Positions 16,185 through 32,036 of a DNA stretch of 64,000 nt are shown piece after piece. Made by a program: the position numbers and the translations under genes. Under the pieces are notes generated by a model, which saw nothing but the letters and a program-made list of their open reading frames with translations, was not told the DNA's origin and ran no database searches. Source of the DNA: Cognatundibacterium jejuense (GTDB taxonomy: Bacteria; Pseudomonadota; Gammaproteobacteria; Burkholderiales; Burkholderiaceae_D); assembly GCF_014284255.1 (NCBI RefSeq), contig NZ_JACOFV010000013.1, forward strand, positions 62,001 to 126,000. The letters run 5' to 3'. Numbering within the stretch: the first letter of the stretch is position 1; each line of letters opens with the position of its first letter.

Positions 16185-17245
16185 GATTTCTTTGATTCCC
16201 AGGGTAGAGTCAGTTCAACGATAAATTCTTGTTCTGTGCGCTTCCACTCGACTCTGGCTTGATCATCATACAAAGCGTGAAAGCGGCAACGCAGATTTTG
16301 TAAGCCAAGACCAGAACCAGTGGCAGGAGAAATATCCGTAGTAACCGGATTGGTAACGCGAATGTGTAACCAATCCGTATTCCTCAGAATTTTTACCGTA
16401 ATACATCCGCCTTGACGGATGGTGCGGATGCCATGTTTAATTGCATTTTCTAATAATGGCTGTAAGATCATAGAAGGAATTAACGCATCATTTGTTGACG
16501 TATCGACCTCGATTGCGATTTGCAATTTCTTCCCAAAGCGGATTTTTTCTACCGCCAAAAAATCCTCACATAAACTCAGCTCTTGGTCCAGGCTAACTTT
16601 TTCTTGTTCCGATAAGGTCAGCGTTTTACGAAAAAAATCTGCCAGGGCGATGGTCATTTCTCGAGCTGCTTTCGCATCAATCGCTGTCAGAGCGCTAATC
16701 GAGTTAAGACTATTGAATAGAAAATGTGGATCAATCTGCGAGCGCAACACTTGCAACTCTGCATCACGTGCTAACAGGTGAGCATAGGTCTCGCGTTTTT
16801 CCGCTGCTCGCATATGTTCAAATGCAATCACGACGTCATAAGTCAATAGCGCTAACAGGTATAAGACAAAATAGCTGGCAAAGAGTGCGATATCAAGTTT
16901 TGATGTGATGTTATGAGGAGACGCAACGTCGTTTAAATTTTCCAGCAGGAGATTCCATGCATGGGCTACGCATAACGCCAGTGCAGCAGAGATGAACGAG
17001 CTGATGATAAATACCAGTGCTATAAGAAAGAACGTGTATTTCTGAATCTGAAATGAACGACAAATATAGTATGCGGAGCTGGTCAAAAAACCAAAAAATA
17101 AACTGACTGGCACTGCGAAAAAGCAAGCGTAGGAAAAATCGCTGAACTCTGCCGATACTAATATTTTTCCCATTATTAGCCCCGCTGCAAGCCATATCGC
17201 GATGTGCCAGAGAAATCTACGGAAATCCGATAGCAGTGGATGCAT
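16181..17245 (-). CDS. sensor histidine kinase, LytS/YehU-like
   Basis: A 354-residue membrane histidine kinase of the His_kinase (LytS/YehU) class. About four membrane helices fill residues 10-150, without the GAF or 5TM-LYT region of LytS proper. The phosphoacceptor His174 is in IDPHFLFNSLNSIS and the ATP-binding N-box is LLENAIKHG (Asn267), followed by a G-rich lid GLGLQNLRCR. GAGAG precedes the ATG. It partners the LytTR regulator, whose start overlaps its end. The LiaF-like genes upstream suggest it senses the state of the cell envelope. The signal is unknown. Confidence 0.93.
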   Translation of the reverse strand: MHPLLSDFRRFLWHIAIWLAAGLIMGKILVSAEFSDFSYACFFAVPVSLFFGFLTSSAYYICRSFQIQKYTFFLIALVFIISSFISAALALCVAHAWNLLLENLNDVASPHNITSKLDIALFASYFVLYLLALLTYDVVIAFEHMRAAEKRETYAHLLARDAELQVLRSQIDPHFLFNSLNSISALTAIDAKAAREMTIALADFFRKTLTLSEQEKVSLDQELSLCEDFLAVEKIRFGKKLQIAIEVDTSTNDALIPSMILQPLLENAIKHGIRTIRQGGCITVKILRNTDWLHIRVTNPVTTDISPATGSGLGLQNLRCRFHALYDDQARVEWKRTEQEFIVELTLPWESKKS

Positions 17246-18920: not shown

Positions 18921-19064
18921 GACAAACTCCTTGATTGGCGTATGCGTACAACTACTGTTGCACGAATGTATGATCTAACTTTGCCAGAATTCAAGCTAAT
19001 TGACAATCGCGATGCAAAATCTTGTTGTTGGCTTGTTTGTCTACCTCAACATGGCCGATGTAAT

Positions 19065-19826
19065 CTAAAGGCATACGGTTAATTCGACTGCTTGCAGGAT
19101 ATTTCCTTGTTGGTTTTGAATAAAAGCAACCAACGATAAATGCTGTCGATTGGCGTTAGCTGGAATATTGACCGTCATGGTAGTTTTTTTAGGCGTTGAT
19201 GCGACAACAGCGATGGGATCTATCCACACTCTGGCAACCGCATCGTGACGTAAAGTTATTCCCTGATTTTCTCCCGCAGAGACTTTACTCGACAAACCAT
19301 TTTCTAGCAGCGCCACATGTAATTCGCCTGACTGGCTGCTATTGCTGTCAATCTCGATAGAAATCTTATCGTTACTTATTCCTGTTTGACGTAGCTTGAT
19401 CGAGGCCAGTGCAGCTTGCTGTTTGATTTTTTCTAATTCTGAAGTAAGGCCGGAATTCCAGTTGCGGAATTCTTTGCCGTTAATAAAAAACTCTGGTGTA
19501 TATACCGTCCTGCTATGAACGTAGGCTGATAATTCCTGTTGTCGCTCTGTGAACAAGCGCTTGGCAAACGGATCTTTCCAGCCGATATAATCCCAGTAAT
19601 CAACATGAAGTGCGAGTGGAATTACTTGATCCGGATGCAAACCAGCGTTTTGAGCGACGTTTTGTAAAAATTTGTCCGCCGGTGGACAGCTGCTGCATCC
19701 TTCCGATGTATATAACTCCAAAAGTGCAACAGTATGTGTAGGGCTCGATCTGCTGCAGAGCTCAATGGCGTTGCCAGTGGATATACATGACGCGAGTAAA
19801 CAGAAAGTGGCTATTGGGAGTTTCAT
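19065..19826 (-). CDS. DUF1223 secreted thioredoxin-fold protein
   Basis: A 253-residue exported protein of the DUF1223 family. I chose ATG 19826 (MKLPIATFCLLASC), which follows GAGGTCCAAGT and begins a clear signal peptide ending near GNA. The mature protein starts with the family block VALLELYTSEGCSSCPPADK, which carries the redox-like CSSC pair in a thioredoxin-type fold. LHVDYWDYIGWKDPFA and FINGKEF follow. Family members are periplasmic and of unknown function; a thiol-redox role is likely from the motif. An upstream in-frame start at 19886 is less likely. Confidence 0.88.
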   Translation of the reverse strand: MKLPIATFCLLASCISTGNAIELCSRSSPTHTVALLELYTSEGCSSCPPADKFLQNVAQNAGLHPDQVIPLALHVDYWDYIGWKDPFAKRLFTERQQELSAYVHSRTVYTPEFFINGKEFRNWNSGLTSELEKIKQQAALASIKLRQTGISNDKISIEIDSNSSQSGELHVALLENGLSSKVSAGENQGITLRHDAVARVWIDPIAVVASTPKKTTMTVNIPANANRQHLSLVAFIQNQQGNILQAVELTVCL

Positions 19827-20303
19827 ACTTGGACCTCGTAGTAAGTTAATCATCAGTCTGCAATATTCGGTTTTCCTTACATTCAAATTTTCTTTGCAAA
19901 AACGAATAGGTGACTTGAGAGGGGGCGATGCTTTGTCCCACTTTATTTATCCACTTGAACTGAATCATCAAATCGCTTTCATGGGCTGCATTGATTGTTA
20001 GTTTGATGGCTTTCGATAATTCAAAAAATACCAAGAAATATTTTATTAATCGCAATTATTGGCAACTATTGGCAATTATTGGAAATAATTATCAATAGAA
20101 AAACAAGTACTAACATCAATTAGTTTTCTCTCAAAATGCAGATTTATTATTCATTGACATGATATGTTACTTATTGTTACTACTCGCTATTTGAATTTAC
20201 ATTCTAAATTTTGATGCCTATAATTTGTGCATCGAGTCAATCGCAATACCAGCCAATTCAAAAAATCAGCCAGTATGTATTGCATTTTTTAGGTATTAAA
20301 AAA
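19827..20303. other. AT-rich intergenic region upstream of the peptide locus
   Basis: This gap is very AT-rich from about 19990 to 20210 and contains three near-repeats of GGCAA(C/T)TATT around 20051-20085. It marks the boundary between core genes and the peptide export locus. I see no convincing gene apart from the N-terminal extension of the following ORF. Confidence 0.45.
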
Positions 20304-20867
20304 ATGTTAAGCAAACGTTTGCTCTCAGCATCAAAAGTGCTTGGGACAATTATATTTCTGGTTTTATTGTCGACGCAGAGTAAGTATTTATTGGACCGTA
20401 CGACATCTCATGGTACCCCATTGTTCTCAAAGGTGGAGCAAGCATGCCTTGGTTGGGGTCGTGACACATTTCGATCCTTCGCACAATCGATTGCACTATC
20501 CGTGAATCAACCCGCAACGCCGATTGCGAAAGCACATCTACCATCAGTCGATTCAGATCTCGGCTCGACGAATTTTTTGTCCAACGCAAACGGTGTGTTT
20601 TCTAGCCATACGATAGATCGTTTTTTTCGTTATCTGGCAACTGTATTCCTTTCGCACTTTCAGGTCGAACAACACACAGTATTTGACGCCGATCGGATTA
20701 TCTCAATTCAGAGAAATAGCACATGTAATACTTCATCTGCACAGATCGACCAGCTACGTGCTGTCACTTTGAAAGCAACGGATGATTTGAAAAAATCGTA
20801 TACCCACACGATATGCATCAAATCGAAAAATGCAAAACTACCTATCTGCGGAGCTATTATCAGTTAG
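20304..20867 (+). CDS. hypothetical protein with one N-terminal membrane anchor (candidate immunity gene)
   Basis: An unrecognised protein of 187 residues from ATG 20304 (MLSKRLLSASKVLG); an in-frame start at 20211 would give 218. One hydrophobic segment, VLGTIIFLVLLS, near residues 13-24, would act as an anchor or uncleaved signal, with the remaining 155 residues outside the cytoplasm. Cysteines appear in QACLGWG, NSTCNTSS, HTICIKS and LPICGA. It lies 330 bp upstream of three double-glycine peptide genes on the same strand. That position would suit an immunity or accessory protein, but nothing in the sequence proves this, and the ribosome site is weak. Confidence 0.45.
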   Translation: MLSKRLLSASKVLGTIIFLVLLSTQSKYLLDRTTSHGTPLFSKVEQACLGWGRDTFRSFAQSIALSVNQPATPIAKAHLPSVDSDLGSTNFLSNANGVFSSHTIDRFFRYLATVFLSHFQVEQHTVFDADRIISIQRNSTCNTSSAQIDQLRAVTLKATDDLKKSYTHTICIKSKNAKLPICGAIIS

Positions 20868-21020
20868 CACGATAGCGACTAAAGCGAACCGTCTGCAATA
20901 GGTTAGGCATAAGTCGGTAACAGCTTTCGCGTTCGACTCATTTTCCAGAGAAATTTTTTATGAATGACTGACACAGTTGATGATGACTGTGCTGAATGGA
21001 GAGTTGCGTCAAAAATTTTT

Positions 21021-21060
21021 AACCGTGCTTAGTTATCACTCGCCATGTATAGGCACGGTT
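21021..21060. repeat. inverted repeat
   Basis: AACCGTGC at 21021-21028 is an exact inverted copy of GCACGGTT at 21053-21060. It could form a long hairpin in the leader of the peptide locus. Confidence 0.5.
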
Positions 21061-21111
21061 GAGCAAGTTTAAGTAGCTTGTGCACAAGATGCACATGAAA
21101 CTTAAAAAGCG

Positions 21112-21142
21112 GTTTGAACCAGATGTTTTATCAGGTTCAAAC
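21112..21142. repeat. perfect 9-bp inverted repeat
   Basis: GTTTGAACC at 21112-21120 and GGTTCAAAC at 21134-21142 are separated by 13 bp. It lies 56 bp upstream of peptide gene 1 and may be an operator or an RNA hairpin. Confidence 0.55.
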
Positions 21143-21154
21143 ATTTTACTAACG

Positions 21155-21186
21155 TCACATTTCAATATGAAAAAGTGTGATTTTTT
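21155..21186 (+). promoter_or_regulatory. terminator-like hairpin directly before the ribosome site of peptide gene 1
   Basis: TCACATTTCA and TGAAA...TGTGA form a stem with a 3-nt bulge and ATA loop, followed by six T residues (21181-21186). The AAGGA ribosome site starts at 21187. The layout fits an attenuator or processed leader rather than a simple terminator. Confidence 0.5.
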
Positions 21187-21197
21187 AAGGAAATAAA

Positions 21198-21395
21198 ATG
21201 CAAGTTTTAAACAATAGTAATGAATTGCAACAAGTCGCTGGTGGTGCTGGTTTTTTTTCTGGTCCGGCACATAATAGTGCCGTAATAAGCGGAAGAAATT
21301 GGGGAGCAGCTGGGCTCATTCTTGGTGCTGCTGGAGTATTTTTATATAGCAGCATTTCTACATATTTCCGTGGCGAATCTGCCAAGCGCCGCTAA
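21198..21395 (+). CDS. double-glycine leader peptide 1 (microcin-like precursor)
   Basis: A 65-residue precursor. The first 16 residues, MQVLNNSNELQQVAGG, form a canonical leader for C39-peptidase ABC exporters, with the EL-x-x-V-x-GG pattern of class II bacteriocins. The predicted mature peptide (49 residues, from AGFFSGPAHN) has no cysteine, one hydrophobic segment (WGAAGLILGAAGVFLYSSIS) and a basic end, SAKRR. AAGGA at 21187-21191 precedes the ATG. It is the first of three such genes upstream of a CvaA/CvaB/TolC-type exporter. Antibacterial activity is inferred from this arrangement; I recognise no known microcin. Confidence 0.8.
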   Translation: MQVLNNSNELQQVAGGAGFFSGPAHNSAVISGRNWGAAGLILGAAGVFLYSSISTYFRGESAKRR

Positions 21396-21446
21396 TGAAA
21401 TGCAATCGTCGTTAAAAACTTAAACGTATCTTAATATTCATCTGGC

Positions 21447-21468
21447 ATCACATAAATATCAATGTGAT
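21447..21468. repeat. hairpin between peptide genes 1 and 2 (ATCACAT arms)
   Basis: ATCACAT at 21447-21453 pairs with ATGTGAT at 21462-21468 across 8 nt. It sits just before the ribosome site AAAGGA of peptide gene 2 and shares the CATCAC arm with later hairpins. Confidence 0.6.
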
Positions 21469-21486
21469 AGCTTTGAAAGGAAAAAA

Positions 21487-21696
21487 ATGCAAGTTATCTC
21501 TACTACATCTGAGCTGAAACAAATCAATGGTGCTGCAAATGGATTCAATCGCTTCAACAATGCGTTGAGCGCAGGTCTTGACGCTGCACAAGGCGCTGCT
21601 ACTCACCCATTTACTTATGCAGCGCTAGGCTTTGTCGCTTTTGCTGGTTATGTGTACGGTCGTTACACCTATACTCCAAGCAGCCGCCGTCGTTAA
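21487..21696 (+). CDS. double-glycine-type leader peptide 2 (microcin-like precursor)
   Basis: A 69-residue precursor whose 16-residue leader MQVISTTSELKQINGA matches the other two residue for residue in layout. It ends in Gly-Ala instead of Gly-Gly, a variant some C39 peptidases accept. The predicted mature part is 53 residues, without cysteine: a FNRFNNALSAG block, then THPFTYAALGF and an aromatic run VYGRYTYTP, ending SSRRR. The FNNAL...HPF pattern recurs in peptide 3, so the two are paralogues. AAAGGA precedes the ATG. It is probably exported and matured by the C39-containing transporter downstream. Confidence 0.78.
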   Translation: MQVISTTSELKQINGAANGFNRFNNALSAGLDAAQGAATHPFTYAALGFVAFAGYVYGRYTYTPSSRRR

Positions 21697-21704
21697 TATA
21701 AGGC

Positions 21705-21747
21705 GAGTACGTTTCCCTTCTCCTGATAAAGCAGAGAAACGGTACTC
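21705..21747 (+). repeat. hairpin after peptide gene 2
   Basis: GAGTAC-GTTTC (21705-21715) pairs with GAAAC-G-GTACTC (21736-21747) with a single bulged base. It begins 8 bp after the stop codon. No T-run follows, so it may protect the 3' end of a processed mRNA. Confidence 0.6.
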
Positions 21748-21780
21748 CCTTAAAGCTTACTTTGCTCCTTGCTAGAAGGC

Positions 21781-21810
21781 ATGTGATGTCAACCTGAGTT
21801 GGCATCACAT
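21781..21810 (+). repeat. strong 13-bp hairpin upstream of peptide gene 3
   Basis: ATGTGATGTCAAC (21781-21793) and GTTGGCATCACAT (21798-21810) pair fully, with one G-T wobble, around a CTGA tetraloop. No T-run follows. A smaller hairpin, ATACGTA/TACGTAT, lies at 21833-21851. Confidence 0.75.
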
Positions 21811-21882
21811 GAAGTAACCATGTCAACAAGCCATACGTATTTGGTACGTATAGCGGCTCTAATTTTACACGAATATTTCATT

Positions 21883-22137
21883 ATGCAATTAGTTCTCAAT
21901 GTCAGTGATCTTCAGCATGTAGGCGGCGGCTTTTCCTGGCCAGCAGTCAATGCTCAAACAAATTTTCGCTTCAATAACGCCCTGACCGGAGCAGGTAGTG
22001 GCGCCTATTTAGGTTCAACTCTTGGCGGTGCAACTGGTCATCCGTTTGTTGGTGCATTCGGTGGTGCGGTTGTTGGCGGTACGCTAGGTTTTTACTTTGG
22101 TAATTATAACCCTGGCCCCATGAGTCGCCGCCGCTAG
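21883..22137 (+). CDS. double-glycine leader peptide 3 (microcin-like precursor)
   Basis: An 84-residue precursor from ATG 21883. The leader MQLVLNVSDLQHVGGG is again 16 residues with DL-x-x-V-x-GG. Longer in-frame starts (TTG 21799, ATG 21820) would bury this leader and are rejected. The mature part (68 residues) shares RFNNAL, GHPF and the SRRR end with peptide 2. Its middle is a Gly/Ala-rich segment with repeated G-x-x-x-G spacing (GSGAYLGSTLGGATG, GGAVVGGTLGFYFG), which often packs membrane helices. There is no cysteine. No ribosome site is obvious, so translation may depend on the upstream hairpins. Confidence 0.78.
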   Translation: MQLVLNVSDLQHVGGGFSWPAVNAQTNFRFNNALTGAGSGAYLGSTLGGATGHPFVGAFGGAVVGGTLGFYFGNYNPGPMSRRR

Positions 22138-22159
22138 TCTAAGGGATCGTGTTCCGAAT

Positions 22160-22232
22160 ATATTGGTCGTGACGCCATGTCTGACGCTGACGTATCAGAC
22201 ATGGTTTGGGCATCACAAGAAACGACCAATAT
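22160..22232 (+). repeat. nested hairpin between peptide gene 3 and the fourth small gene
   Basis: The outer arms ATATTGGTCGT (22160-22170) and ACGACCAATAT (22222-22232) are an exact 11-bp inverted repeat. The inner arms CCATGTCTGA (22175-22184) and TCAGACATGG (22195-22204) are an exact 10-bp one. A GGCATCACA copy lies between the right arms. Confidence 0.75.
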
Positions 22233-22266
22233 TGTATTGAATCATTAAAGTGAAATAGGAGTTGAA

Positions 22267-22431
22267 GTGAATAGAATGAATTTTAACGTTATACAAACAA
22301 AATTTACCGGCGTGATTGATCGTCGTTTTCGGATAATGCCTGTGCTTCGTCCTATATTTCCTGAAACGCCAGTAAGGAACGAACCGTTACCAACTAAACC
22401 TGTTACGCCTATCCGGTTTCATCACATGTGA
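22267..22431 (+). CDS. small proline-rich basic peptide, no double-glycine leader
   Basis: A 54-residue ORF from GTG 22267, with AGGAG at 22257-22261 and a five-base spacer, the best ribosome site in this locus. The product begins MNRMNFNVIQTKFTGVIDRR and continues with a proline-rich stretch (PVLRPIFPETPVRNEPLPTK). It lacks a double-glycine leader, cysteines and a membrane segment. The stop codon lies inside a palindrome, ATCACATGTGAT. Position between the peptide genes and the exporter suggests a role in the system (immunity, regulator or a fourth product), but no family is recognised. Confidence 0.6.
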   Translation: MNRMNFNVIQTKFTGVIDRRFRIMPVLRPIFPETPVRNEPLPTKPVTPIRFHHM

Positions 22432-22446
22432 TCGCTTGTCGATCAC
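22428..22446. repeat. hairpin overlapping the end of the small proline-rich gene
   Basis: GTGATCG (22428-22434) and CGATCAC (22440-22446) form a 7-bp stem with a 5-nt loop. The adjoining ATCACATGTGAT (22421-22432) is a perfect palindrome that could pair as an alternative. Confidence 0.5.
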
Positions 22447-22557
22447 GATTTGACTAACTCTCCTTTATGCAAATGCAGGCTACTGTTGCTGCATCGCTGA
22501 GAGTTGGCCGAAGTAAAGAATTGAATTCATCAACATCACGAAATATAAGAGCAAGCA

Positions 22558-23820
22558 ATGCAGTCTCGTACAGAAATAATCGCCAGACAAGCACATCGTT
22601 ACGGTCATGAAACGATACAACTCGGCATGAGTCCCTGGCGCTTAACGTCCATATTATTGGCAATCATGGCGTTGACAGTGTTGCTCCTTATCTGGCTATG
22701 CGATTACACAAAAAAAGCCAGAGTGTTGGGACAAGTTGTTCCTAGTCAGGGGTTGACCAAAGTCATCGCATTGCAGGCTGGGGTGGTCAATGATTTGCGG
22801 GTTACCGAAGGTCAGCATGTCAAAGCCGGCGATGTTTTATTACAGATTAATTCAAGTAAAGCACTCGTTCATGGCAGTTTGCAAAAAGAGGTACTGACTA
22901 GCATTGATGAACGATCAGCCAATTTAGAAGAAAGCAAGGAAGTTGTGCACTCTATGTATCGTGCCAAAAAACGCGAGGCAAAAGAAAAAGTCAGACAACT
23001 TAGTGCGCAGGCAAGTGATTTGGCTAAGCAGAAAAGCTTGTTGGAGCAAAGAAGTAAGTTAGCAAATTTGGCTTTGCAGAGACAACAAAAGTTACTGGAA
23101 GAAGGCTACGTGTCAGCGGCAAGTGTAGATGAAAAACGTGCGGAGCTGGCGATGGCTGATAGCCAGTTAGCAGCGTTGCGCAGTTCAGTTGCGGAAATGG
23201 CCCAACAACAAGCAACTGCAACATCGTTATTGGAACAGCTGCCTTTGTCGTCGCAATCTGAGCGAAATAGCTTGAATCGAGATATTGCTGCGCTGGCGGC
23301 AGAACGTGCACACCAAGAAAGCCAACGTGAGATGCGAGTGATTGCACCACGAGATGGCATCGTGACTGCATTACAGATAAAGCAAGGCGCGACTGTCACT
23401 GAGCAAACGGTTCTACTTCAATTATTGCCAGAAGGCGATAGCTACCAGGTGGAGCTATTCGTTCCAAGTCGAGATATTGGATTTGTAAAAACGGGGATGC
23501 AGGTATCGTTAAGGTATGAAGCTTTTCCGTATCAAAAATTTGGTGTTCAGACTGGACGTGTGTTGGAGCTGACTAAGACAGTGATTCCAGCTCGTGAATT
23601 GTCAGTCAGCTTACCTGAACGTGAAGACTATTACCGCTTACTGGTCAAATTGTCCTCTCAGAAAATAAATCATGCGAATCAAAGCTGGGATTTGCAAAGC
23701 GGCATGAAGGTAGAAGCGGATGTGACATTAGATACGCGTCCTATTTGGGAGTGGTTATTTGAACCACTTCTCGGTTTGAAAAAGAATCAAAAATTGAATT
23801 CTGAAAGAATGAAGTCATGA
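22558..23820 (+). CDS. HlyD-family membrane fusion protein (CvaA-like)
   Basis: A 420-residue periplasmic adaptor for type I secretion. One membrane helix lies near residues 29-48 (TSILLAIMALTVLLLIWLC). A barrel/lipoyl half follows (VIALQAGVVNDLRVTEGQHV), then a long coiled-coil hairpin of about 100-240, the second lipoyl half (REMRVIAPRDGIVTALQIKQ) and a C-terminal beta domain. It bridges the inner-membrane ABC transporter and the TolC-like channel. Its last four bases overlap the start of the transporter gene, so the two are translationally coupled. The type matches colicin V CvaA and other bacteriocin exporters. Confidence 0.92.
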   Translation: MQSRTEIIARQAHRYGHETIQLGMSPWRLTSILLAIMALTVLLLIWLCDYTKKARVLGQVVPSQGLTKVIALQAGVVNDLRVTEGQHVKAGDVLLQINSSKALVHGSLQKEVLTSIDERSANLEESKEVVHSMYRAKKREAKEKVRQLSAQASDLAKQKSLLEQRSKLANLALQRQQKLLEEGYVSAASVDEKRAELAMADSQLAALRSSVAEMAQQQATATSLLEQLPLSSQSERNSLNRDIAALAAERAHQESQREMRVIAPRDGIVTALQIKQGATVTEQTVLLQLLPEGDSYQVELFVPSRDIGFVKTGMQVSLRYEAFPYQKFGVQTGRVLELTKTVIPARELSVSLPEREDYYRLLVKLSSQKINHANQSWDLQSGMKVEADVTLDTRPIWEWLFEPLLGLKKNQKLNSERMKS

Positions 23821-26006
23821 GTACGATAGACAGTTTTTTGACGATGCTGCAAACGAGCTGGCGTCGTCGATTGCCGGTGCTTCGGCAAACTGAAGCAGCC
23901 GAATGTGGACTTGTTTGTGTCACGATGGTAGCCAGTTACTACGGAAAAATGCTGGACATAGCACAACTGCGGCGTCAAATTGGCATTTCTCTTCTGGGAA
24001 TGACGATGTTCGATATGATCAACGTAGCTAAGAACATGGACATGAGTGGAAGAGCATTGAGACTTGAACTTTCGGAATTAACTCAATTGAAGTGTCCGGC
24101 AATTCTTCATTGGGACATGAACCATTTTGTCGTTCTAAAAAAAGTTGGTCGTCGGCACATCATTATTCATGATCCTGCAAGCGGTATTAAAAAACTCAGT
24201 TTTACAGAGTTTAGTCAGCACTTTACTGGTATCGCTTTGGAGTTAGAACCGACTGAGAAATTTCAGAAAGAAGACACGCGTAACGCGATCAATTTGCGTT
24301 CCATCATGGGCAAGGTAGATGGCCTCAACGCTGCGATGGTACACATTTTATTGTTGTCACTGGTGATGGAAATATTTGTTCTTGCCACACCCTTAGTTAT
24401 GCAAATGGTGACAGATGAAGTGTTGGTCAGTTTTGATCGTGATTTATTAACCTTATTGATCATTGGAACGATAGGCCTTGGACTTGCAAAAACCATGACT
24501 AATTTTGTTCGTGGTTGGGTGATTACGCATATATCAACAAGACTCAATGTGTTGTGGCAAACACGGGTGTTTGAACATTTGCTGAAGTTGCCGCTCGCGT
24601 ACTTTGAAAAGCGCCATGTTGGCGATATTGTGTCACGCTTTGAATCTTTGCATTCGATTCAAGAGATGTTGACGATGCAATTAATCGAAGGGATTCTCGA
24701 CGGTGTCGTTGCCCTCATCGCGTTTGTTTTGATGCTCATGTATAGCCCGACCTTAGCGTTTGTGGCTTTAGGTTTTGTCTTGAGTTATGGTTTTTTACGT
24801 TGGTTGCGCTTTCGTCCTGTTCGCTACGCTCAAGAGGCACAAATTGTCTCTCGCGCAGAACTTGAATCACACTTTCTTGAGACGGTGCGAGGGATGCAAA
24901 CGGTTAAACTTTTTTCTGGTGGCGATATTCGCAGAGATGAATGGCTGCGTCGTTTGATTCGGACAACCAACGAAGGTCTGCGTTTGCGTAAGTTGGATCT
25001 GCTATTTCACATTGCACAAGGATTGCTGGTCGCATTTGAGCATGGCTTAGTTTTATGGCTAGGGGCGCAGGCAGTGTTGGGTGGCGTTTTTAGCGTCGGT
25101 GCATTATTGGCCTATCTTTCATGGAAAGACCAGTTTATCAGTGGGTTGGATGCTTTGATTGATAAGCTTGCTAATTTGGGAATGATACGGCTTTATGCCG
25201 AGCGTCTTTCCGATATCGTACAAACAGAACCGGAAGAGTTGCCACAGATCCCATTCTTAGGCATTGGCGAATTGCAATCAGATTTAGAGTTGCACAACGT
25301 GTGTTTTCGCTATGGTTCATTTTTACCGCGCGTCATTGATGCCGTTTCCCTCAAAGTACATGCAGGCGAGTACGTTGCTATTGCAGGAAGATCTGGCTTG
25401 GGTAAAACAACGCTTTTGAAGCTGATGTTAGGCTTATTGAGTCCTGAGCAAGGTGAGCTCAAGTTTGGTGGTGTCAATATAAATCAACTGGGTTCTGAAT
25501 ATAGAAAGAGAATCGCAGCGGTAATGCAAAGTGACCATTTACTGGCGGGTAGTCTGGCGGAAAATATCGCCTTTTTCGACGCGCAAGCAGATCAACAGTG
25601 GATAGAAGAGTGTGCGAAATTAGCCTGTCTGCATGAAGAGATTTTGGCGATGCCTATGGGTTACAGCACATTGGTGGGGGATATGGGAAGTGCCTTGTCA
25701 GGAGGTCAAAAGCAACGCTTGTTGCTGGCACGCGCTTTGTACCGGCGCCCACAGATTTTGTTCATGGATGAGGCAACGAGCAATCTGGACGTGTCACTCG
25801 AATTTCAGATTAATGAAAATATCAAACGCCTATCAATCACCCGTATCGCGGTAGCACATCGCCCTCAAACTTTGGCGATGGCGGATCGTGTTATTGATTT
25901 AAATCCGGATTCGCCATCCGTAAATGACGTTCCAACATACGAACAGCTTGTGACAGATAGTGAGAGTCAAACTGGTTTTGATTATCCAAGACTATTTCCC
26001 TTATAG
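23817..26006 (+). CDS. peptidase-containing ABC transporter for bacteriocin export (CvaB-like)
   Basis: A 729-residue exporter that both cleaves double-glycine leaders and exports peptides. The N-terminal C39 peptidase looks active: Cys30 (QTEAAECGLVC), His103 (WDMNHFVVL) and Asp119 (IIHDPASG). Six membrane helices lie at about 160-440. The ATPase domain has Walker A (GRSGLGKTT, about 523-531), signature LSGGQKQR (about 626-633) and Walker B (ILFMDEATSNLD). The intact catalytic triad separates it from HlyB-type transporters with a degenerate peptidase. Together with the adaptor gene it overlaps and the three leader peptides upstream, it defines a dedicated peptide secretion system. Confidence 0.95.
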   Translation: MSTIDSFLTMLQTSWRRRLPVLRQTEAAECGLVCVTMVASYYGKMLDIAQLRRQIGISLLGMTMFDMINVAKNMDMSGRALRLELSELTQLKCPAILHWDMNHFVVLKKVGRRHIIIHDPASGIKKLSFTEFSQHFTGIALELEPTEKFQKEDTRNAINLRSIMGKVDGLNAAMVHILLLSLVMEIFVLATPLVMQMVTDEVLVSFDRDLLTLLIIGTIGLGLAKTMTNFVRGWVITHISTRLNVLWQTRVFEHLLKLPLAYFEKRHVGDIVSRFESLHSIQEMLTMQLIEGILDGVVALIAFVLMLMYSPTLAFVALGFVLSYGFLRWLRFRPVRYAQEAQIVSRAELESHFLETVRGMQTVKLFSGGDIRRDEWLRRLIRTTNEGLRLRKLDLLFHIAQGLLVAFEHGLVLWLGAQAVLGGVFSVGALLAYLSWKDQFISGLDALIDKLANLGMIRLYAERLSDIVQTEPEELPQIPFLGIGELQSDLELHNVCFRYGSFLPRVIDAVSLKVHAGEYVAIAGRSGLGKTTLLKLMLGLLSPEQGELKFGGVNINQLGSEYRKRIAAVMQSDHLLAGSLAENIAFFDAQADQQWIEECAKLACLHEEILAMPMGYSTLVGDMGSALSGGQKQRLLLARALYRRPQILFMDEATSNLDVSLEFQINENIKRLSITRIAVAHRPQTLAMADRVIDLNPDSPSVNDVPTYEQLVTDSESQTGFDYPRLFPL

Positions 26007-26230
26007 CACCGTCGTTCACAAGTTCGTCACAATGTCTGCCGCTTCTCATCGAAGTCCAAACATTCTCGATCAATATGACTTGTGATGATGACTTTCTGAG
26101 GAAGGACGAATCTTTTTTGTGGATATTGTCTGCCGTATGTTCGATGTTTTTTTTTGATAAATCCGTTTTTATGAACTGTAAGTTACAAAGAATTAAATCG
26201 GATGATTTATTTAAATTTCTAGGTAAGTAA

Positions 26231-27595
26231 ATGCGTCAGCTTTTTTTCGCCATAATGGCGTTAAGTATTTTTCATTCTTCATCTGCGAAGGCAATGGGGT
26301 TATTACAAATTTATAGAGAGGCATTGATAAGTGATTCTATCTATGCAAGCGCTCGTGCCAGCCAGTTAGCCGGTGAAGAGAAAGCAGTCCAGGGGCGTTC
26401 CAGTTTGATGCCCAACGTCGTATTGAGTGGTCAAATTACACGCACTTCGCAAGAAAGTATTGGCGACTTTTCCTCAACTGGTGCTGCACTAGCGACGTCT
26501 GCTTCAAATAAAACTTACGGATTGCAATTGTCATACACCTTGCAAGTAACCCAGCCACTGTTTCGTTGGGCGAATTGGCAGCAATACGAGCAAGGTAAGT
26601 TGGCAGTCGTTGCTAGTGACGCGCAGTTTGCGCAGGCAAAATTAGATCTGATTGTTCGTGTGGCACAGGCCTATTTTGATGTGTTAGATGCTCAAAACGT
26701 GTCGACCACCCTACAGGCAGAAAAGTTATCCATTGCGCAACAGCGCATAGCTGCAAAGCGTAACTTTGACATAGGAACCGCAACGATTACCGATAGTCAT
26801 GAGGCGCAAGCTAGATATGATCTTGTGGTAGCCCAAGAATATGCTGCCATTGCAGATTTGAATTTGAAACGCGCGGTGTTGCAACAGATGAGTTCTAAAG
26901 ATATTGGTGAACTGCCTATGTTAAAGAAGGGAGTGACTCTTGCACCACTTGAATCAGCGGAAGAAGCCTATTGGTTAAGTTTGGTTGACACCAAAAATTA
27001 TGAAGTAATTGCAGCACAGGTACGATTGGAAATCGCCAAAAGAGCCATTTCGGTTAGTCGCGCAGGACATTATCCGACGGTAGATTTACTTGCGACAATG
27101 CAGCGCACACGAGCCAGTGGTGACTTACCTGGATCGTTTCCCAGCGCCGATTCAAATAGAACCAATAGTATCGGGATTCAAGTAAGTATTCCTTTGTTTT
27201 CTGGCTTCATGGTGAGCAGTCAGGTAAACGAAGCAATTGCCTTGAAGGAAAAGGCGAGATTTGATCTGGAGTCTGCTCGCCGTGGAGCTGCGCAAAATGC
27301 TCGCACTACGTTATTCGGTTTTAACAGTGGCATGGAGAAGGTAAAGGCGTTAGAAGTCGCAGTTGTATCCGGAGCCGCTTCATTGGCTTCAAATGTTCGG
27401 GGTTACGAAGTCGGTGTGCGCATTAACATTGACGTCTTGAATGCACAACACCAACTACATCAGACAAGAAGAGAGTTGGAGAAAGCACGTTATGACGCGA
27501 TCATGAATGGACTGAGATTAAAAGCGATCGCGGCGTCTCTAAGAGAAACTGATTTGATCGATGTCGCATCGTTGTTAGCGTATGGTGATGAATGA
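26231..27595 (+). CDS. TolC-family outer-membrane channel of type I secretion
   Basis: A 454-residue outer-membrane efflux protein with signal peptide MRQLFFAIMALSIFHSSSAK. It has the duplicated TolC architecture of two coiled-coil halves, with family blocks such as LQVTQPLFRWANWQQYEQ, VAQAYFDVLDAQN, GTATITDSHEAQAR and VSIPLFSGFMV. AGGTAAG precedes the ATG. A 224-bp gap separates it from the transporter gene, and it may have its own promoter. It completes the tripartite export machine for the leader peptides. Dedicated TolC genes are not always present in such loci, so the set here is self-contained. Confidence 0.93.
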   Translation: MRQLFFAIMALSIFHSSSAKAMGLLQIYREALISDSIYASARASQLAGEEKAVQGRSSLMPNVVLSGQITRTSQESIGDFSSTGAALATSASNKTYGLQLSYTLQVTQPLFRWANWQQYEQGKLAVVASDAQFAQAKLDLIVRVAQAYFDVLDAQNVSTTLQAEKLSIAQQRIAAKRNFDIGTATITDSHEAQARYDLVVAQEYAAIADLNLKRAVLQQMSSKDIGELPMLKKGVTLAPLESAEEAYWLSLVDTKNYEVIAAQVRLEIAKRAISVSRAGHYPTVDLLATMQRTRASGDLPGSFPSADSNRTNSIGIQVSIPLFSGFMVSSQVNEAIALKEKARFDLESARRGAAQNARTTLFGFNSGMEKVKALEVAVVSGAASLASNVRGYEVGVRINIDVLNAQHQLHQTRRELEKARYDAIMNGLRLKAIAASLRETDLIDVASLLAYGDE

Positions 27596-27790
27596 TTAAG
27601 TTCTAGCCTTGACAGATGGATCTATCCCTACCTATTATGAATAGGCAGAAGCGAAGGGCAATATTTTTTTCAGAAATTAATTGATTTGGTCCGTGTTTAA
27701 TGAACGTAGCTCACATTTAACGATGCCAACTTTCACATTGAACGAAACGCAAACTTGCTGATTGCCTAGTTTGAAACGGGATGAAGAAAT

Positions 27791-28588
27791 ATGCAAATAC
27801 TGAAGATCCTTTTTATATTTTCTTTCATTCTGTTTTCCAGAATTTCTTTATCTTCGGATTTGCCGATTTGTCCGAAGCATCCAATTCGTTATGCAGTATT
27901 TGACTCGGGATTTTACTATCATAACGGTAAAGGGATGGATGTCGATATTGCCAATGCATTGAAAACCAGAACATCATGTGAATTTGAGATTATTGTTCTA
28001 CCCATTGCCCGTATTTGGGTCGAAATTCAAAACGGTAAAGTGGATATGGTAGGAACTGGAGTCCAAACGCCGGAGCGTGTGAAACACGCGTATTTTTACA
28101 ATTTACGTTACTCAACGCCGTATCTTATTTCGACACGATCAATGCAAAAGAAAATCGAAACAATGGATCAGTTGATGCTTGACCCGGATATCACTTTAGG
28201 CATCCAGCGACAATTTGATCATGGCTCTTATTTTAATCACTACTTAGAGCAACTACGCGAAAAAAAAAGACTGGTCGAAGCCGCGGATACGGAGACACTA
28301 TTGAAAATGTTAGTTGCAAAAAGGTTTAATCTAGCCTTAGTCTATCCTATGTCTTATCGCCCGATCGCTAAAGAGTTGCAATTGGACGATAGCTTGCTTG
28401 TGTATGATGTCAGTCCACCGCGCACTGGTAAATACGGAGGCCTGGCGCTATCCCGGCTTTCATTTTCCGAAATTGAAGCCGAGAAGTGGGGGGCATTGAT
28501 ATTGAGGATGCACAAGGACGGAACCGTGCGTAAAATTCTGAGTAATTATTTGCCAGAACAGGAAGCGAAAAAAATTGCTATTCCGTAA
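27791..28588 (+). CDS. periplasmic substrate-binding protein (SBP_bac_3 family)
   Basis: A 265-residue exported protein with signal peptide (ILFIFSFILFSRISLSS). It has the two-lobe amino-acid-binding-protein fold: AVFDSGFYYHNGKGMDVDIA at the first lobe, then an IQNGKVDMVGTGVQTPERVK segment typical of family 3 solute-binding proteins. No ABC permease or ATPase is adjacent, as with many orphan binding proteins in Burkholderiales. It follows the TolC gene by 195 bp on the same strand. Whether it belongs to the peptide locus is unclear. The ligand is unknown. Confidence 0.82.
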   Translation: MQILKILFIFSFILFSRISLSSDLPICPKHPIRYAVFDSGFYYHNGKGMDVDIANALKTRTSCEFEIIVLPIARIWVEIQNGKVDMVGTGVQTPERVKHAYFYNLRYSTPYLISTRSMQKKIETMDQLMLDPDITLGIQRQFDHGSYFNHYLEQLREKKRLVEAADTETLLKMLVAKRFNLALVYPMSYRPIAKELQLDDSLLVYDVSPPRTGKYGGLALSRLSFSEIEAEKWGALILRMHKDGTVRKILSNYLPEQEAKKIAIP

Positions 28589-28597
28589 GCATTAAGG

Positions 28598-29578
28598 TTA
28601 AACAAATCTTGAAGCTGCATCCAAATTTAATATCAAGGATTTAAATTCGGTATAACTTTGCGGTACATTCCCGTCATGTACTAATACGGTGCGTAGTCGT
28701 TTGATCAGTTCTTCTTGTAGCAGGTTTTTCGAATTTTCTGATGTAGGCTTGAATCGTTGATCTTGAATAGATTGTAAATTATTTGTCAGCCATTGCAGAT
28801 CTAAAGTTGGATGGTTGAGATGTAGTGCAGAATCTTTTTCAATTGCATGCAACTGCTCAAAATCTCTGGACATATGCTTGACCGCATACACTAATAAGTT
28901 ATAACTGTCGGCAGATTTTATCCACCAGACGTTATTTGAAAACTGTTGGTGCAACATTGTGAGCATGGGTGTTAAAACGCTGGGCTTCCCCCACACGTTA
29001 GCGACCAGCACACCACTGTGGTTCAGTTGTCGGTAACAGTTGGCATAGAATTGAGCTGAATTGAGTGACGGAACCAGACCGTGGATGTCATACGCATCCA
29101 GAAAAATCACATCGGCATTACATTCTTGTTGCGGCAGCCATTCAACTGCGTCAGCATGAATAATTCTGAGTCGCGCGTCATCGTCAGGAATCATAAATTG
29201 CCGACGCATAGCGATAACATCAGCATTAATTTCTACTGCGGTAATACGGCAATCTGGTAAATTTTGATAACAATATTTGACCAGCGAGCCACCGCCGAGT
29301 CCAATCAGAATAATGTGTTTGGGGTTTGGATTGAATAGTAAAAAACCCATCATTGCTCTGGAATACGCACATAACAACTGATCCGGTTGATCAATACGCA
29401 TAACGCTTTGCATACAAGTAGGTGTCAGATACATCATGCGCAGTGGCTCATCGTTCAGAATAAACGGTTTGCCTGCTGCAGCCTCCGCCAGCCCTTTCAA
29501 TGTTGCTTGATGCTGCAACTCCTCGGTACTCGGCTTATTCAAAAACAAACGCGATAAACTTTGACGAGCTTTAGCCAT
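28598..29578 (-). CDS. spermidine-synthase-like methyltransferase-fold protein
   Basis: A 326-residue protein with the SAM-type Rossmann fold of spermidine synthases: IILIGLGGGSL, AVEINADVIAMRR, IIHADAVEWLP and VIFLDAYD. In true spermidine synthases this domain transfers an aminopropyl group to putrescine. Many bacterial homologues like this lack the N-terminal beta domain and an adjacent speD and may have other roles. Here the neighbours are a binding protein (convergent) and a ParB-like gene (same strand). Activity is therefore unproven. A C-terminal extension of about 100 residues has no clear motif. Confidence 0.8.
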   Translation of the reverse strand: MAKARQSLSRLFLNKPSTEELQHQATLKGLAEAAAGKPFILNDEPLRMMYLTPTCMQSVMRIDQPDQLLCAYSRAMMGFLLFNPNPKHIILIGLGGGSLVKYCYQNLPDCRITAVEINADVIAMRRQFMIPDDDARLRIIHADAVEWLPQQECNADVIFLDAYDIHGLVPSLNSAQFYANCYRQLNHSGVLVANVWGKPSVLTPMLTMLHQQFSNNVWWIKSADSYNLLVYAVKHMSRDFEQLHAIEKDSALHLNHPTLDLQWLTNNLQSIQDQRFKPTSENSKNLLQEELIKRLRTVLVHDGNVPQSYTEFKSLILNLDAASRFV

Positions 29579-29673
29579 GGTAGTTTATATTTTCAATGTC
29601 TACGTTGAATGCAAAAAACCTTTTCGAATATCATCACTTCAAGGTGTTCAGTTTTAGGCGTGCTGTTGATAGG

Positions 29674-30534
29674 CTAATAGCTACCAGTGTGTACTTTTTC
29701 TAATGCCGCCTGCAACTCCGCAATTTTTTTAAGCAGGGCGGCATTTTCGGATTGTAAAGCAATAATCTTTTGTTGAAGAACCGGCACTTCCGCATCGCCG
29801 CCATAGTGATGTGATGTCACTGCATTGCCATTATTGACATCTGAGGATTCTTCAGATTCTGCGACTTGCTTTGCGATTTTGGTTGGTGCTTTTTGCTCAC
29901 GAATTTTTTCGCGTACTTGTCTGGCCGCTTGCTGTAATTCTTTACGACCACCTGCCACTGCGGCTTGCTGTTCCTCATCAGGCAATGAAGCGACAGCCGC
30001 TGCTGCACTGATAGAAATCGTACCATCTCGCACCGCTTGCACCAATGCAGGTGACGCTGTCCTTTGGATTTTTTCAATTTGCACGACTGCATTGCTGCTA
30101 ATGCCTGCTTCCCGAGCTATTTCCTGTCGGCTTTGGGTCGGCTTAATTACGGGAACGGCGATATCCGCTTCACCTTCCACAGACGGAGCATTGGTGTCAT
30201 GGTGCTTAGTGCGGGCAGTGATGATTTCTTTTTTTCTCAAAGCCAGCATGCCACGCTGAAAGTCAGATACGCTGCGACGCGCAAGGTGATTGTCTATCAT
30301 CCACAGTTGAACATCTTCAATATTACTGAAATTGTCGTTTTGCACAACCTTAAACGGTATTTGATGCTTTTGGCAGATAGCGTAGCGGTTATGTCCATCA
30401 ATCAGCACGTCACCCCAGCAAACCAACGCATCGCGGCAGCCTTCGGTCAATATGCTACGTTCCAGGGCTGCATACTCATGCTCGGTCAGTGGATCAATAT
30501 AAGCGCGTAATGCCTCGTGAATAGTGATGTTCAT
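29674..30534 (-). CDS. orphan ParB-like nuclease/partition-domain protein
   Basis: A 286-residue protein with an N-terminal ParB/Srx domain (ALERSILTEGCRDALVCWGD, VLIDGHNRYAICQKHQIPF). The DGHNR segment is the family's signature. A helix-turn-helix region follows (SRQEIAREAGISSNAVVQIE) and then a C-terminal leucine-rich coiled coil (LQQKIIALQSENAALLKKIA). I chose ATG 30534 (MNITIHEALRAY), with AAGGG upstream, over an in-frame ATG at 30558. No ParA gene or parS-like array is adjacent, so it may be a regulator or the remnant of a plasmid or phage module rather than a chromosome partition factor. Confidence 0.85.
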   Translation of the reverse strand: MNITIHEALRAYIDPLTEHEYAALERSILTEGCRDALVCWGDVLIDGHNRYAICQKHQIPFKVVQNDNFSNIEDVQLWMIDNHLARRSVSDFQRGMLALRKKEIITARTKHHDTNAPSVEGEADIAVPVIKPTQSRQEIAREAGISSNAVVQIEKIQRTASPALVQAVRDGTISISAAAAVASLPDEEQQAAVAGGRKELQQAARQVREKIREQKAPTKIAKQVAESEESSDVNNGNAVTSHHYGGDAEVPVLQQKIIALQSENAALLKKIAELQAALEKVHTGSY

Positions 30535-30912
30535 CGTTCTACCCTTGCAATATTTCATGGAAGGCGAAATTGTAGCTGAGAAATCTGTCCAGAAATCATG
30601 TCAGCGTAGAAGTAGGGCTGCTCTAGCTTAGATTACGGTCGGATTGCCTGTCGCGTGTACAATACTGTGCTTAACAAAGCGTAGCCTGCCTTTTTCATAC
30701 CAACAGCTATACTGAAAGATGACATTATTTGCGCTAATTGAACGATAAAAATGCCAATCCAGTGTTTTTTGCGCGCTTTCTTATTGCGTTAGTCAGAGTT
30801 GGCATCCATTCTCCAAGCTGATTTCCTGGCATCTTCTGATATCTTGAGGCTATTGCCAAAATTTTTACCCATTATCAGGTGTATTAACACCTGTTTTTAA
30901 GGAATTTCCATT
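30535..30912. other. divergent gap between parB-like and small gene
   Basis: This 378-bp gap holds no clear gene. ATGCCAA (30751-30757) and TTGGCAT (30799-30805) form a 7-bp inverted repeat 41 bp apart. A terminator-like hairpin (30876-30898) sits immediately before the next gene. Confidence 0.5.
30876..30898 (+). terminator. terminator-like hairpin in the 5' leader of the following gene
   Basis: CAGGTGT (30876-30882) and ACACCTG (30887-30893) form a perfect 7-bp stem around ATTA, followed by five T residues. The next start codon is at 30913, with AAGGAA between. The upstream gene points away, so this may be an attenuator rather than an end-of-gene terminator. Confidence 0.6.
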
Positions 30913-31161
30913 ATGATGACCTATGAGCAATATCTGGACGAAGTCACCACACTGATGACTGAGAAATTTGATCTGACTGACGAGGATGCGATCAAACATG
31001 TAATGCGTGCGCAAGCCAACGACTTTTTCACTTTGCATGACGATGTGCCTGAAATGCGCACCCAGGAACGTGCAGAACAAGACGCACAGACGATTTATGA
31101 TCAGCGCAACAAGTCCCGTCCACATACACCACCGCAGCGTCCTTCCAAGCCGCGTAAATAA
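30913..31161 (+). CDS. conserved small hypothetical protein
   Basis: An 82-residue acidic-then-basic soluble protein. The N-terminal half is rich in acidic helices (YEQYLDEVTTLMTEKFDLTD) and the tail is Pro/Lys/Arg-rich (SRPHTPPQRPSKPRK). AAGGAA lies just before the ATG. It is 29 bp upstream of the RIO kinase gene on the same strand, so the two are probably cotranscribed. I do not know its function; a partner or substrate of the kinase is possible. Confidence 0.75.
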   Translation: MMTYEQYLDEVTTLMTEKFDLTDEDAIKHVMRAQANDFFTLHDDVPEMRTQERAEQDAQTIYDQRNKSRPHTPPQRPSKPRK

Positions 31162-31190
31162 TTCACTCCGCTAAAGAGTAAAGAGATTAG

Positions 31191-32036
31191 ATGAAAACAC
31201 CAAAAAGAATCCAACCACTGGTCGAAGAAGGACTGGTTGATGAGGTTCTGCGTCAATTGATGAGTGGTAAAGAAGCGACGGTCTACGTGGTGCGATGCGA
31301 GAATGAAATTCGCTGCGCCAAAGTGTATAAGGAAGCAAGTCAGCGCAGCTTTAAGCAAGCGGCATCTTATCAGGAAGGTCGCAAAGTCAAAAATAGCCGG
31401 CAAGCGCGCGCCATGGAAAAAGGCACACGCTACGGTCGCAAGATGCAGGAAGAAGTCTGGCAAAATGCCGAAGTCGATGCCCTGTATAAACTGGCTGCGG
31501 CTGGCGTCAAAGTGCCTAAGCCGTATATTTGCTTTGAGGGCGTGTTGCTGATGGATTTGGTGACGGATGCTGATGGCAATGCCGCACCACGCCTGAATGA
31601 TGTTGAACTCTCACACACATTGGCATTGCAATACCATGCACAATTATTGCAGCAGGTAGTTTTGATGTTATGTGCTGGCGTGATTCATGGCGATCTGTCT
31701 GAATTTAATATTCTGGTCGATGCTGATGGTCCAGTCATTATCGATTTGCCGCAAGCGATTGACGCGGCAAGCAATACCGAAGCGGCAAAAATGTTAGACC
31801 GCGATGTCACCAATCTGGCGTCGTATTTTGGTCAGTTTGCACCCGAACTCAACGATACCCAATACGGTAAGGAAATCTGGAAACTATATGTCGCCGGAGA
31901 ATTGACACCAGAAAGTAAATTAACGGGGCATGTTGCCGCAGATACTCGACCGGTCAATGTTGGTGAGGTTATGAAAGAAATTGAATCAGCGATTTTCGAA
32001 GAACAGGAACGTTTGCGCCGTATGGCAGAGATGTAA
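31191..32036 (+). CDS. RIO-type protein kinase (PA4780 family)
   Basis: A 281-residue atypical serine kinase of the bacterial RIO group. The nucleotide loop is SGKEATVYVV at 25-34 with Lys44 as the likely ATP-binding lysine. The catalytic loop is IHGDLSEFNIL with Asp168, and the metal-binding Asp185 sits in IIDLPQAID. Eukaryotic and archaeal RIO kinases act in ribosome maturation; the bacterial members are uncharacterised but keep all catalytic residues. AAAGAG is upstream of the ATG. The small gene before it is probably in the same transcript. Confidence 0.9.
   Translation: MKTPKRIQPLVEEGLVDEVLRQLMSGKEATVYVVRCENEIRCAKVYKEASQRSFKQAASYQEGRKVKNSRQARAMEKGTRYGRKMQEEVWQNAEVDALYKLAAAGVKVPKPYICFEGVLLMDLVTDADGNAAPRLNDVELSHTLALQYHAQLLQQVVLMLCAGVIHGDLSEFNILVDADGPVIIDLPQAIDAASNTEAAKMLDRDVTNLASYFGQFAPELNDTQYGKEIWKLYVAGELTPESKLTGHVAADTRPVNVGEVMKEIESAIFEEQERLRRMAEM

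Follow-up and report, generated by a model that had tools for sequence, protein, structure and literature searches.

We examined a candidate peptide export locus in a 64,000-nucleotide stretch of the genome of Cognatundibacterium jejuense (Burkholderiales; assembly GCF_014284255.1, contig NZ_JACOFV010000013.1, positions 62,001 to 126,000), referred to here as the window. An earlier reading of the letters alone (the sequence-only reading) had proposed that 21198-27595 holds a new, self-contained class II microcin-like system, in which three small same-strand genes with 16-residue leaders are followed by genes for a HlyD-like protein, a C39 peptidase-ABC transporter and a TolC-like protein. All six genes were found at the places given by that reading (Table 1), and the description of a self-contained locus, with leaders and C39 exporter together, holds; the unit is larger than that interval, spanning about 19887-28597.

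Table 1. Features of the locus and its flanks (window coordinates; aa, amino acids; ORF, open reading frame).
Feature	Position	Strand	Description
DUF1223 gene (left flank)	19065-19886	minus	family match
Inserted block (genomic island)	about 19887..28597		between DUF1223 gene and spermidine-synthase-like gene; exact ends approximate
Orphan ORF, possible immunity/accessory gene	20211..20867	+	one hydrophobic stretch; start uncertain, ATG at 20304 possible
Precursor peptide 1	21198..21395	+	65 aa; leader MQVLNNSNELQQVAGG; mature 49 aa, net +4
Precursor peptide 2	21487..21696	+	69 aa; leader MQVISTTSELKQINGA; mature 53 aa, net +4; homologous to peptide 3
Precursor peptide 3	21883..22137	+	84 aa; leader MQLVLNVSDLQHVGGG; mature 68 aa, two GxxxG runs, net +4
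Small proline-rich ORF, doubtful gene	22267..22431	+	GTG start, AGGAG before start; codon score 0.007
HlyD-type membrane fusion protein	22558..23820	+	HlyD_3 PF13437 3.6e-21
C39 peptidase-ABC transporter	23817..26006	+	Peptidase_C39 PF03412 1.3e-37, ABC_membrane PF00664, ABC_tran PF00005
TolC-type outer membrane channel	26231..27595	+	OEP PF02321 4e-43; TIGR01844 260.9 bits, cut-off 225.15
Family 3 solute-binding protein	27791..28588	+	PF00497 2.3e-11; within insert
Spermidine-synthase-like gene (right flank)	28598-29578	minus	family match

The leaders of peptides 1, 2 and 3 end in GG, GA and GG (VAGG, INGA, VGGG), and the mature parts that would follow them are strongly basic (isoelectric point above 10), end in RR (AKRR, SRRR, SRRR) and, as the sequence-only reading had said, contain no cysteines. 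Codon scores of the three genes were coding-like (0.283, 0.277 and 0.303 bits/codon) and similar to those of hlyD, the ABC transporter gene and tolC (0.247, 0.219 and 0.254 bits/codon), while antisense and overlapping control ORFs all scored below zero; third-position GC (guanine plus cytosine) content of the peptide genes, at 0.27-0.39, was lower than 0.46. Ribosome sites (AAGGA/AAAGGA) precede peptides 1 and 2. No clear site was found upstream of peptide 3, the frame of which is open upstream as far as a TTG at 21799, and its start was placed at 21883 because the leader match lies there. The mature parts of peptides 2 and 3 are homologues of each other (none of 5000 shuffles did as well; BLASTP E value for the pair 7e-7). 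That of peptide 1 shows no relationship to them (92% and 67% of shuffles did as well), and peptide 1 shares with the other two the leader only. The spacers 21000-21148, before peptide 1, and 21697-21840, after peptide 2, fold as strong hairpins (z scores of -5.3 and -4.4; 0 of 200 shuffles as stable), the limits of the former having been set after its inverted repeats had been seen; the spacers 21396-21486, 22138-22266 and 22432-22557 fold less strikingly (z scores of -1.2, -2.3 and -1.7).

Leaders were scored with a 12-position matrix built from 24 hand-picked leaders of related loci (a subset of those found, with the peptides of the window excluded). Among the 608 short ORF sets of the window, peptide 1 ranked 1st (16.9 bits), the peptide 3 frame 2nd (14.9 bits) and peptide 2 7th (9.3 bits), and the maxima of 10 Markov-shuffled windows lay at 10.2-14.2. 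Four unrelated ORFs of the window rank between peptides 3 and 2 (14.7, 14.3, 12.5 and 12.0 bits), so the leader score alone singles out peptide 1 only. Since the training leaders score 19-34 bits on their own matrix, the leaders at this locus follow the family pattern more weakly. The predicted peptide set convinces through its tandem of three, the same leader spacing and a position directly before a C39 exporter.

The transporter retains the Cys30, His103 and Asp119 that the sequence-only reading had reported as intact, along with its Walker A and LSGGQ motifs, and Pfam matches of the HlyD, C39-ABC and TolC proteins were all above cut-off; the HlyD protein lies below the cut-off of the narrower TIGR01843 (149.9 vs 208.65). 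The nearest solved sequences to the C39-ABC protein were those of bacteriocin-type transporters (8vp3, 4ry2), and membership in the NHLP bacteriocin exporters (TIGR03796) was rejected by score (462.8 vs a cut-off of 853.3). Because the exporter parts are intact, export is strongly expected. Cleavage behind residue 16 (GG, GA, GG) by the C39 domain of the transporter, followed by passage of the mature peptides out of the cell through the ABC-HlyD-TolC conduit, is very likely; the peptides are probably unmodified. A modified peptide (ribosomally synthesized and post-translationally modified) was set aside, as no modification enzyme occurred among the family matches of the ORFs of the insert, to which this check was confined. 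The same genome encodes a second C39-ABC protein of 45% identity (C6:150267-152309; L053 8196-10313), which adjoins a TraB/gumN-family gene; near it there was no hlyD match and, by pattern, no leader-like ORF, and the contig ends about 1.2 kb beyond, where genes may be missing.

Peptide 3 is the only one of the three to pass the gathering cut-off of Pfam PF13488 Gly-zipper_Omp (26.9 bits; cut-off 25), and it gives weak matches to further zipper families and to Bacteriocin_IIc. Its mature sequence holds eight GxxxG motifs (as many in 5 of 10000 shuffles), arranged in two runs of four steps with His-Pro (HP) between them, and a predicted model of low confidence (predicted local distance difference test, pLDDT, 53; predicted template-modelling score, pTM, 0.24) places helices at 24-51 and 54-73. 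The mature parts of peptides 1 and 2 hold three and one GxxxG, respectively (5.9% and 44% of shuffles as many). No bacteriocin model in Pfam or NCBIfam exceeded its cut-off for the mature parts, peptide 2 had no match to PF10439 Bacteriocin_IIc, and the peptide profile matched no PDB sequence at an E value of 1. A congener (G224) carries a 75-aa glycine-rich peptide with a GG leader (L137 4630-4857) that scores 25.2 bits with Bacteriocin_IIc, below the cut-off; no HlyD or C39-ABC match was found within 13 kb around its gene.

The surroundings of these genes indicate that they belong to an inserted block. Both flanking proteins were searched in 43 same-genus genomes, including that of C. jejuense itself: the synthase-like protein had a match at 1e-20 in 43 of 43 (in many only a paralogue, at about 30-37% identity) and DUF1223 a match at 1e-15 in 16. 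In seven of the 42 other genomes (G187, G202, G207, G208, G212, G215 and G226), the two flanking genes are adjacent in the same order and orientation, with aligned ends 54-104 bp apart, compared with about 8.7 kb here, which argues that some 8.7 kb was inserted at this site. The pair does not stand together in the eight other genomes with DUF1223 (G085, G154, G201, G209, G213, G217, G218 and G225), where the synthase-like orthologue is absent or weak, far off or on a different contig. The block is thus read as an insertion; the alternative, loss in the seven congeners, is disfavoured because the 42 other genus genomes yielded no peptide 3 at full length. The edge stretches (19821-20230 vs 28481-28720) share no direct 9-mer and one inverted 9-mer, and the GC content of the block is near that of the window. 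An origin from a plasmid or phage was considered and rejected: tblastn of peptides 1 and 3, the two searched, gave no match in a plasmid collection, and of 43 pattern stretches for the peptide profile in viral contigs, 0 were confirmed. No Rfam RNA family was found at gathering scores in 19000-31500.

The profile searches, in which the candidates scored in each genome are limited in number, recovered all three peptides in their own genome (E values of 2e-36, 3e-31 and 2e-26). Weak partial matches to peptide 3 occur in 26 of the 42 other genus genomes (best E value 0.001). The search of related genomes that the sequence-only reading had proposed found no full-length relative, either in 391 other family genomes (seven with one weak partial match each, E values of 0.001-0.01) or in 368 other class genomes (three weak partial matches, best 3e-5, in frames of 155-660 aa). 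None of the family matches spans the whole leader, and the one in G288 starts at profile position 10 within an open frame of 302 aa. The transporter had a match in 195 of 195 genomes searched and, among the matches listed, many were nearly full-length, at 40-51% identity. Its genetic context was followed in a sample of 42 transporter loci (40 chosen by hand, including the second C39-ABC of this genome, plus two further). An ATG-only leader pattern found an ORF in 25 of them, three of which (L072, L078 and L086) were removed by eye to leave 22 of 42; the peptides of L060, L073, L076 and L085 are, by eye, glycine-rich too. With a GG peptide in this many loci, the architecture is ordinary in the family and the mature sequences are not. 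To call the system new was therefore an overstatement as regards its frequent architecture, and apt as regards the mature peptides. Loci L054-L059, from another genus of the family, have recurrent GG peptides (leaders like MAIQQLSxxEIDxVSGG) with a cysteine-bearing core and a long proline tail, one beside each HlyD/C39-ABC pair. The small proline-rich ORF in the island occupies the same place, just upstream of hlyD, and has no GG leader of its own; its descent as a decayed relative of these peptides was not established, as only the proline tails align.

A possible immunity gene was sought within the insert. The orphan ORF upstream of the peptides (187-218 aa, best 19-residue hydropathy 1.93) has a codon score near zero (0.017 bits/codon), which does not exclude a gene, because DUF1223, clearly a member of its family, scores no more than 0.061 bits/codon. 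It has no ribosome-binding site by the search pattern, no Pfam or PHROG match (best NCBIfam match, E value 0.12), no relative better than an E value of 0.024 in the 42 other genus genomes and none at 0.001 in 398 other order genomes; its single-sequence model (pLDDT 38) was of no use. The 51-aa ORF at 26075-26230 was rejected as an immunity gene (codon score 0.007), having failed the filter for ribosome site/hydrophobic stretch.

The peptides of the island would fall among the bacteriocin-like systems of the double-glycine, C39-exported kind, with the Cdz-like group as the nearest, and their mature sequences appear to be new; titles and abstract openings in the literature held no description of these three peptides. 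The Cdz system of Caulobacter crescentus (CdzA-D, CdzI) mediates contact-dependent killing, and the sections of the report used here (comparisons with published systems draw on parts of the cited papers throughout) define Cdz-like peptides by 60-151 residues, a leader ending in G[G/A/S], one or two zippers with proline or charged residues beside them and none inside, a charged/polar C-terminus, and type I secretion system genes within 10 kb (PMC5380434). All three peptides (65, 69 and 84 aa) have the length and leader, and the C-terminus and adjacent type I exporter are present as well; the zipper was found in peptide 3 (one of three), peptides 1 and 2 having single-step runs only. On these published sequence criteria, peptide 3 would thus count as Cdz-like, and peptides 1 and 2 in part. 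Further marks of the group are HMM similarity to CdzC/CdzD, retention on the cell surface, contact-dependent killing and a transmembrane immunity protein, for the last of which the island offers a weakly supported candidate in the orphan ORF. The island shares with Cdz and Cdz-like systems small zipper peptides with a short polar/charged tail, more than one peptide, an adjacent type I exporter, likely horizontal acquisition and difficulty in recognising immunity genes. For Cdz-like loci in general, frequent horizontal acquisition and hard-to-find immunity genes are described, 5% of loci encode three candidate toxins, and examples were reported in Burkholderia cepacia (PMC5380434). The island differs in that it includes a TolC gene, absent from cdz as described in those sections, and has no clear counterpart of CdzI, a protein with three predicted transmembrane segments; furthermore, the extended zipper is limited here to peptide 3, and the mature part of peptide 1 is unrelated.

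Likeness to class II microcins of the colicin V type lies in the components. Five are listed for these microcins, including a cognate immunity protein (51-216 aa, encoded nearby, usually with transmembrane segments; PMC9746304), and the island has the GG/GA precursor, the peptidase-containing ABC transporter with Cys/His/Asp, the membrane fusion protein and TolC. A candidate for the immunity protein is the upstream orphan ORF, suitable in size and with one hydrophobic stretch, a low codon score and no ribosome-binding site by pattern. The island differs from these microcins in having no identified immunity gene, a zipper mature peptide and three peptides (two of them paralogues). The label of class II microcin-like given by the sequence-only reading therefore stands if taken broadly, since a double-glycine peptide is combined with C39-ABC, membrane fusion protein and TolC; it fits less well in that no immunity gene was found with confidence and that the only motif recognised in any of the peptides, in peptide 3, is a glycine zipper of Cdz-like description. 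The island resembles class IIb two-peptide bacteriocins (PF10439) in the weak profile matches of peptides 1 and 3, the GxxxG motifs and the paralogous pair; the family cut-off is not reached, and the exporter here comes with HlyD and TolC.

On balance, we consider this probably an acquired island from which three double-glycine peptides are produced and exported, the likeliest use of which would be to kill or inhibit related neighbours by membrane damage. Counted towards this interpretation are the complete exporter, the leader scores (strongest for peptide 1), the coding signal, the zipper, the low-confidence helices and the Cdz-like sequence features of peptide 3, the homologous pair, the +4 charge and RR ends, and the insertion and absence from other genomes searched, together with the weak Bacteriocin_IIc matches of peptides 1 and 3, which stay below cut-off. 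Peptide 3 and its paralogue peptide 2 would be of a helical glycine-zipper type, oligomerising in the membrane or on the cell surface, and peptide 1 may act beside them as an unrelated partner, likewise membrane-active, or be a product in its own right. Related cells without the island would be killed or inhibited by membrane damage, as in Cdz or the class IIb bacteriocins; that peptides 2 and 3 assemble through their zippers and so inhibit such cells is put forward with less confidence. Self-protection might come, speculatively, from the orphan ORF at 20211 or from an unrecognised gene. A bolder version, a three-component zipper surface weapon that joins the pair of peptides 2 and 3 to the unrelated peptide 1, with a dedicated TolC and either a new immunity protein (the orphan at 20211) or none, is doubtful but conceivable. 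There is precedent for such predictions being right in part: in another study of 23 candidate class II microcins, drawn from Pantoea, Erwinia and Xanthomonas, 12 had an inhibitory effect on E. coli, far weaker than that of MccV (PMC13174018).

Several observations weigh against a killing function. The leader scores of peptides 2 and 3 are equalled or nearly so by unrelated ORFs of the window, and the uninterrupted GxxxG runs of peptides 1 and 2 are single-step only (the same in 50% and 28% of shuffles). Peptides 1 and 3 reach 19.9 and 17.7 bits with PF10439 Bacteriocin_IIc, below its cut-off of 27.1; this model is not clean, matching at an E value of 1 or less in 8 of 14 control genomes, and it exceeded its cut-off in 0 of 43 genus genomes. 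Within the insert no immunity gene was identified with confidence, so that the antibacterial function stays a prediction. Comparable peptides have other uses: the similar Nap peptides of Neisseria killed none of the bacteria tested (PMC11798529), and the GG peptides of Synechococcus serve biofilm formation (PMC4997328). A non-killing role was kept under consideration because GG peptides elsewhere serve autolysis or biofilm and no convincing immunity gene was seen.

If the exported peptides acted on the producer's own population, as in stationary-phase autolysis by the Nap peptides of Neisseria gonorrhoeae, the lack of a confident immunity gene would be understandable, and the nap locus, by its description, is likewise an acquired island with three cationic GG peptides (PMC11798529). 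The secretion parts differ: in the sections of that report used here, nap is bounded by a C39 protein and a FapF-type porin, without the C39-ABC/HlyD/TolC set, and it has napI, similar to a bacteriocin immunity protein, while mature Naps are much shorter, at 16-36 aa (PMC11798529). An autolytic role is for these reasons unlikely. We also think it unlikely that the peptides are extracellular matrix or biofilm factors, with zippers driving surface aggregation, on the model of the cyanobacterial EbfG1-4. These are several GG-motif peptides on one transcript, their efficient secretion needs the C39 domain of the transporter PteB, and biofilm needs EbfG1-4, a likeness again drawn from description (PMC4997328). 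A cellulose synthase locus (BcsB, BcsC domains) does lie in the same window, 24 kb from the insert and thus outside it; the cationic RR tails and weak IIc similarity would favour membrane activity over a role in biofilm. At that locus, 52641-57209 encodes a 1522-aa ORF with Glycosyltransferase 2, PilZ and BcsB domains, which resembles a BcsA-BcsB fusion, and a BcsC-like ORF comes next.

Signalling seems very improbable. Peptides acting as pheromones could be received by the solute-binding protein (27791-28588), the gene for which is carried within the insert, or by a LytTR regulator and histidine kinase (15438-17245), encoded to the left with 2.6 kb between their end and the insert and 4 kb between their end and peptide 1; this pair lies outside the insert, and at 49-68 aa the mature peptides, with their zippers, exceed the usual length of pheromones. 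A diffusible class IIa microcin, taken up via a specific outer-membrane receptor as colicin V is, would fit the published component set except for immunity (PMC9746304, in part). It is nonetheless improbable, as the zipper-rich peptide 3 is of an aggregation-prone type and the mature parts exceed no bacteriocin cut-off in Pfam or NCBIfam.

Membrane damage to related neighbours thus remains our preferred reading, and the double-glycine systems outside Enterobacterales gain an island whose limits are well placed, with three peptides not seen before. To our knowledge, few double-glycine peptide systems outside that order have been tested. Since congeners with an empty site suggest themselves as sensitive indicator strains, killing, self-lysis and matrix roles of Gram-negative zipper peptides would be directly testable.

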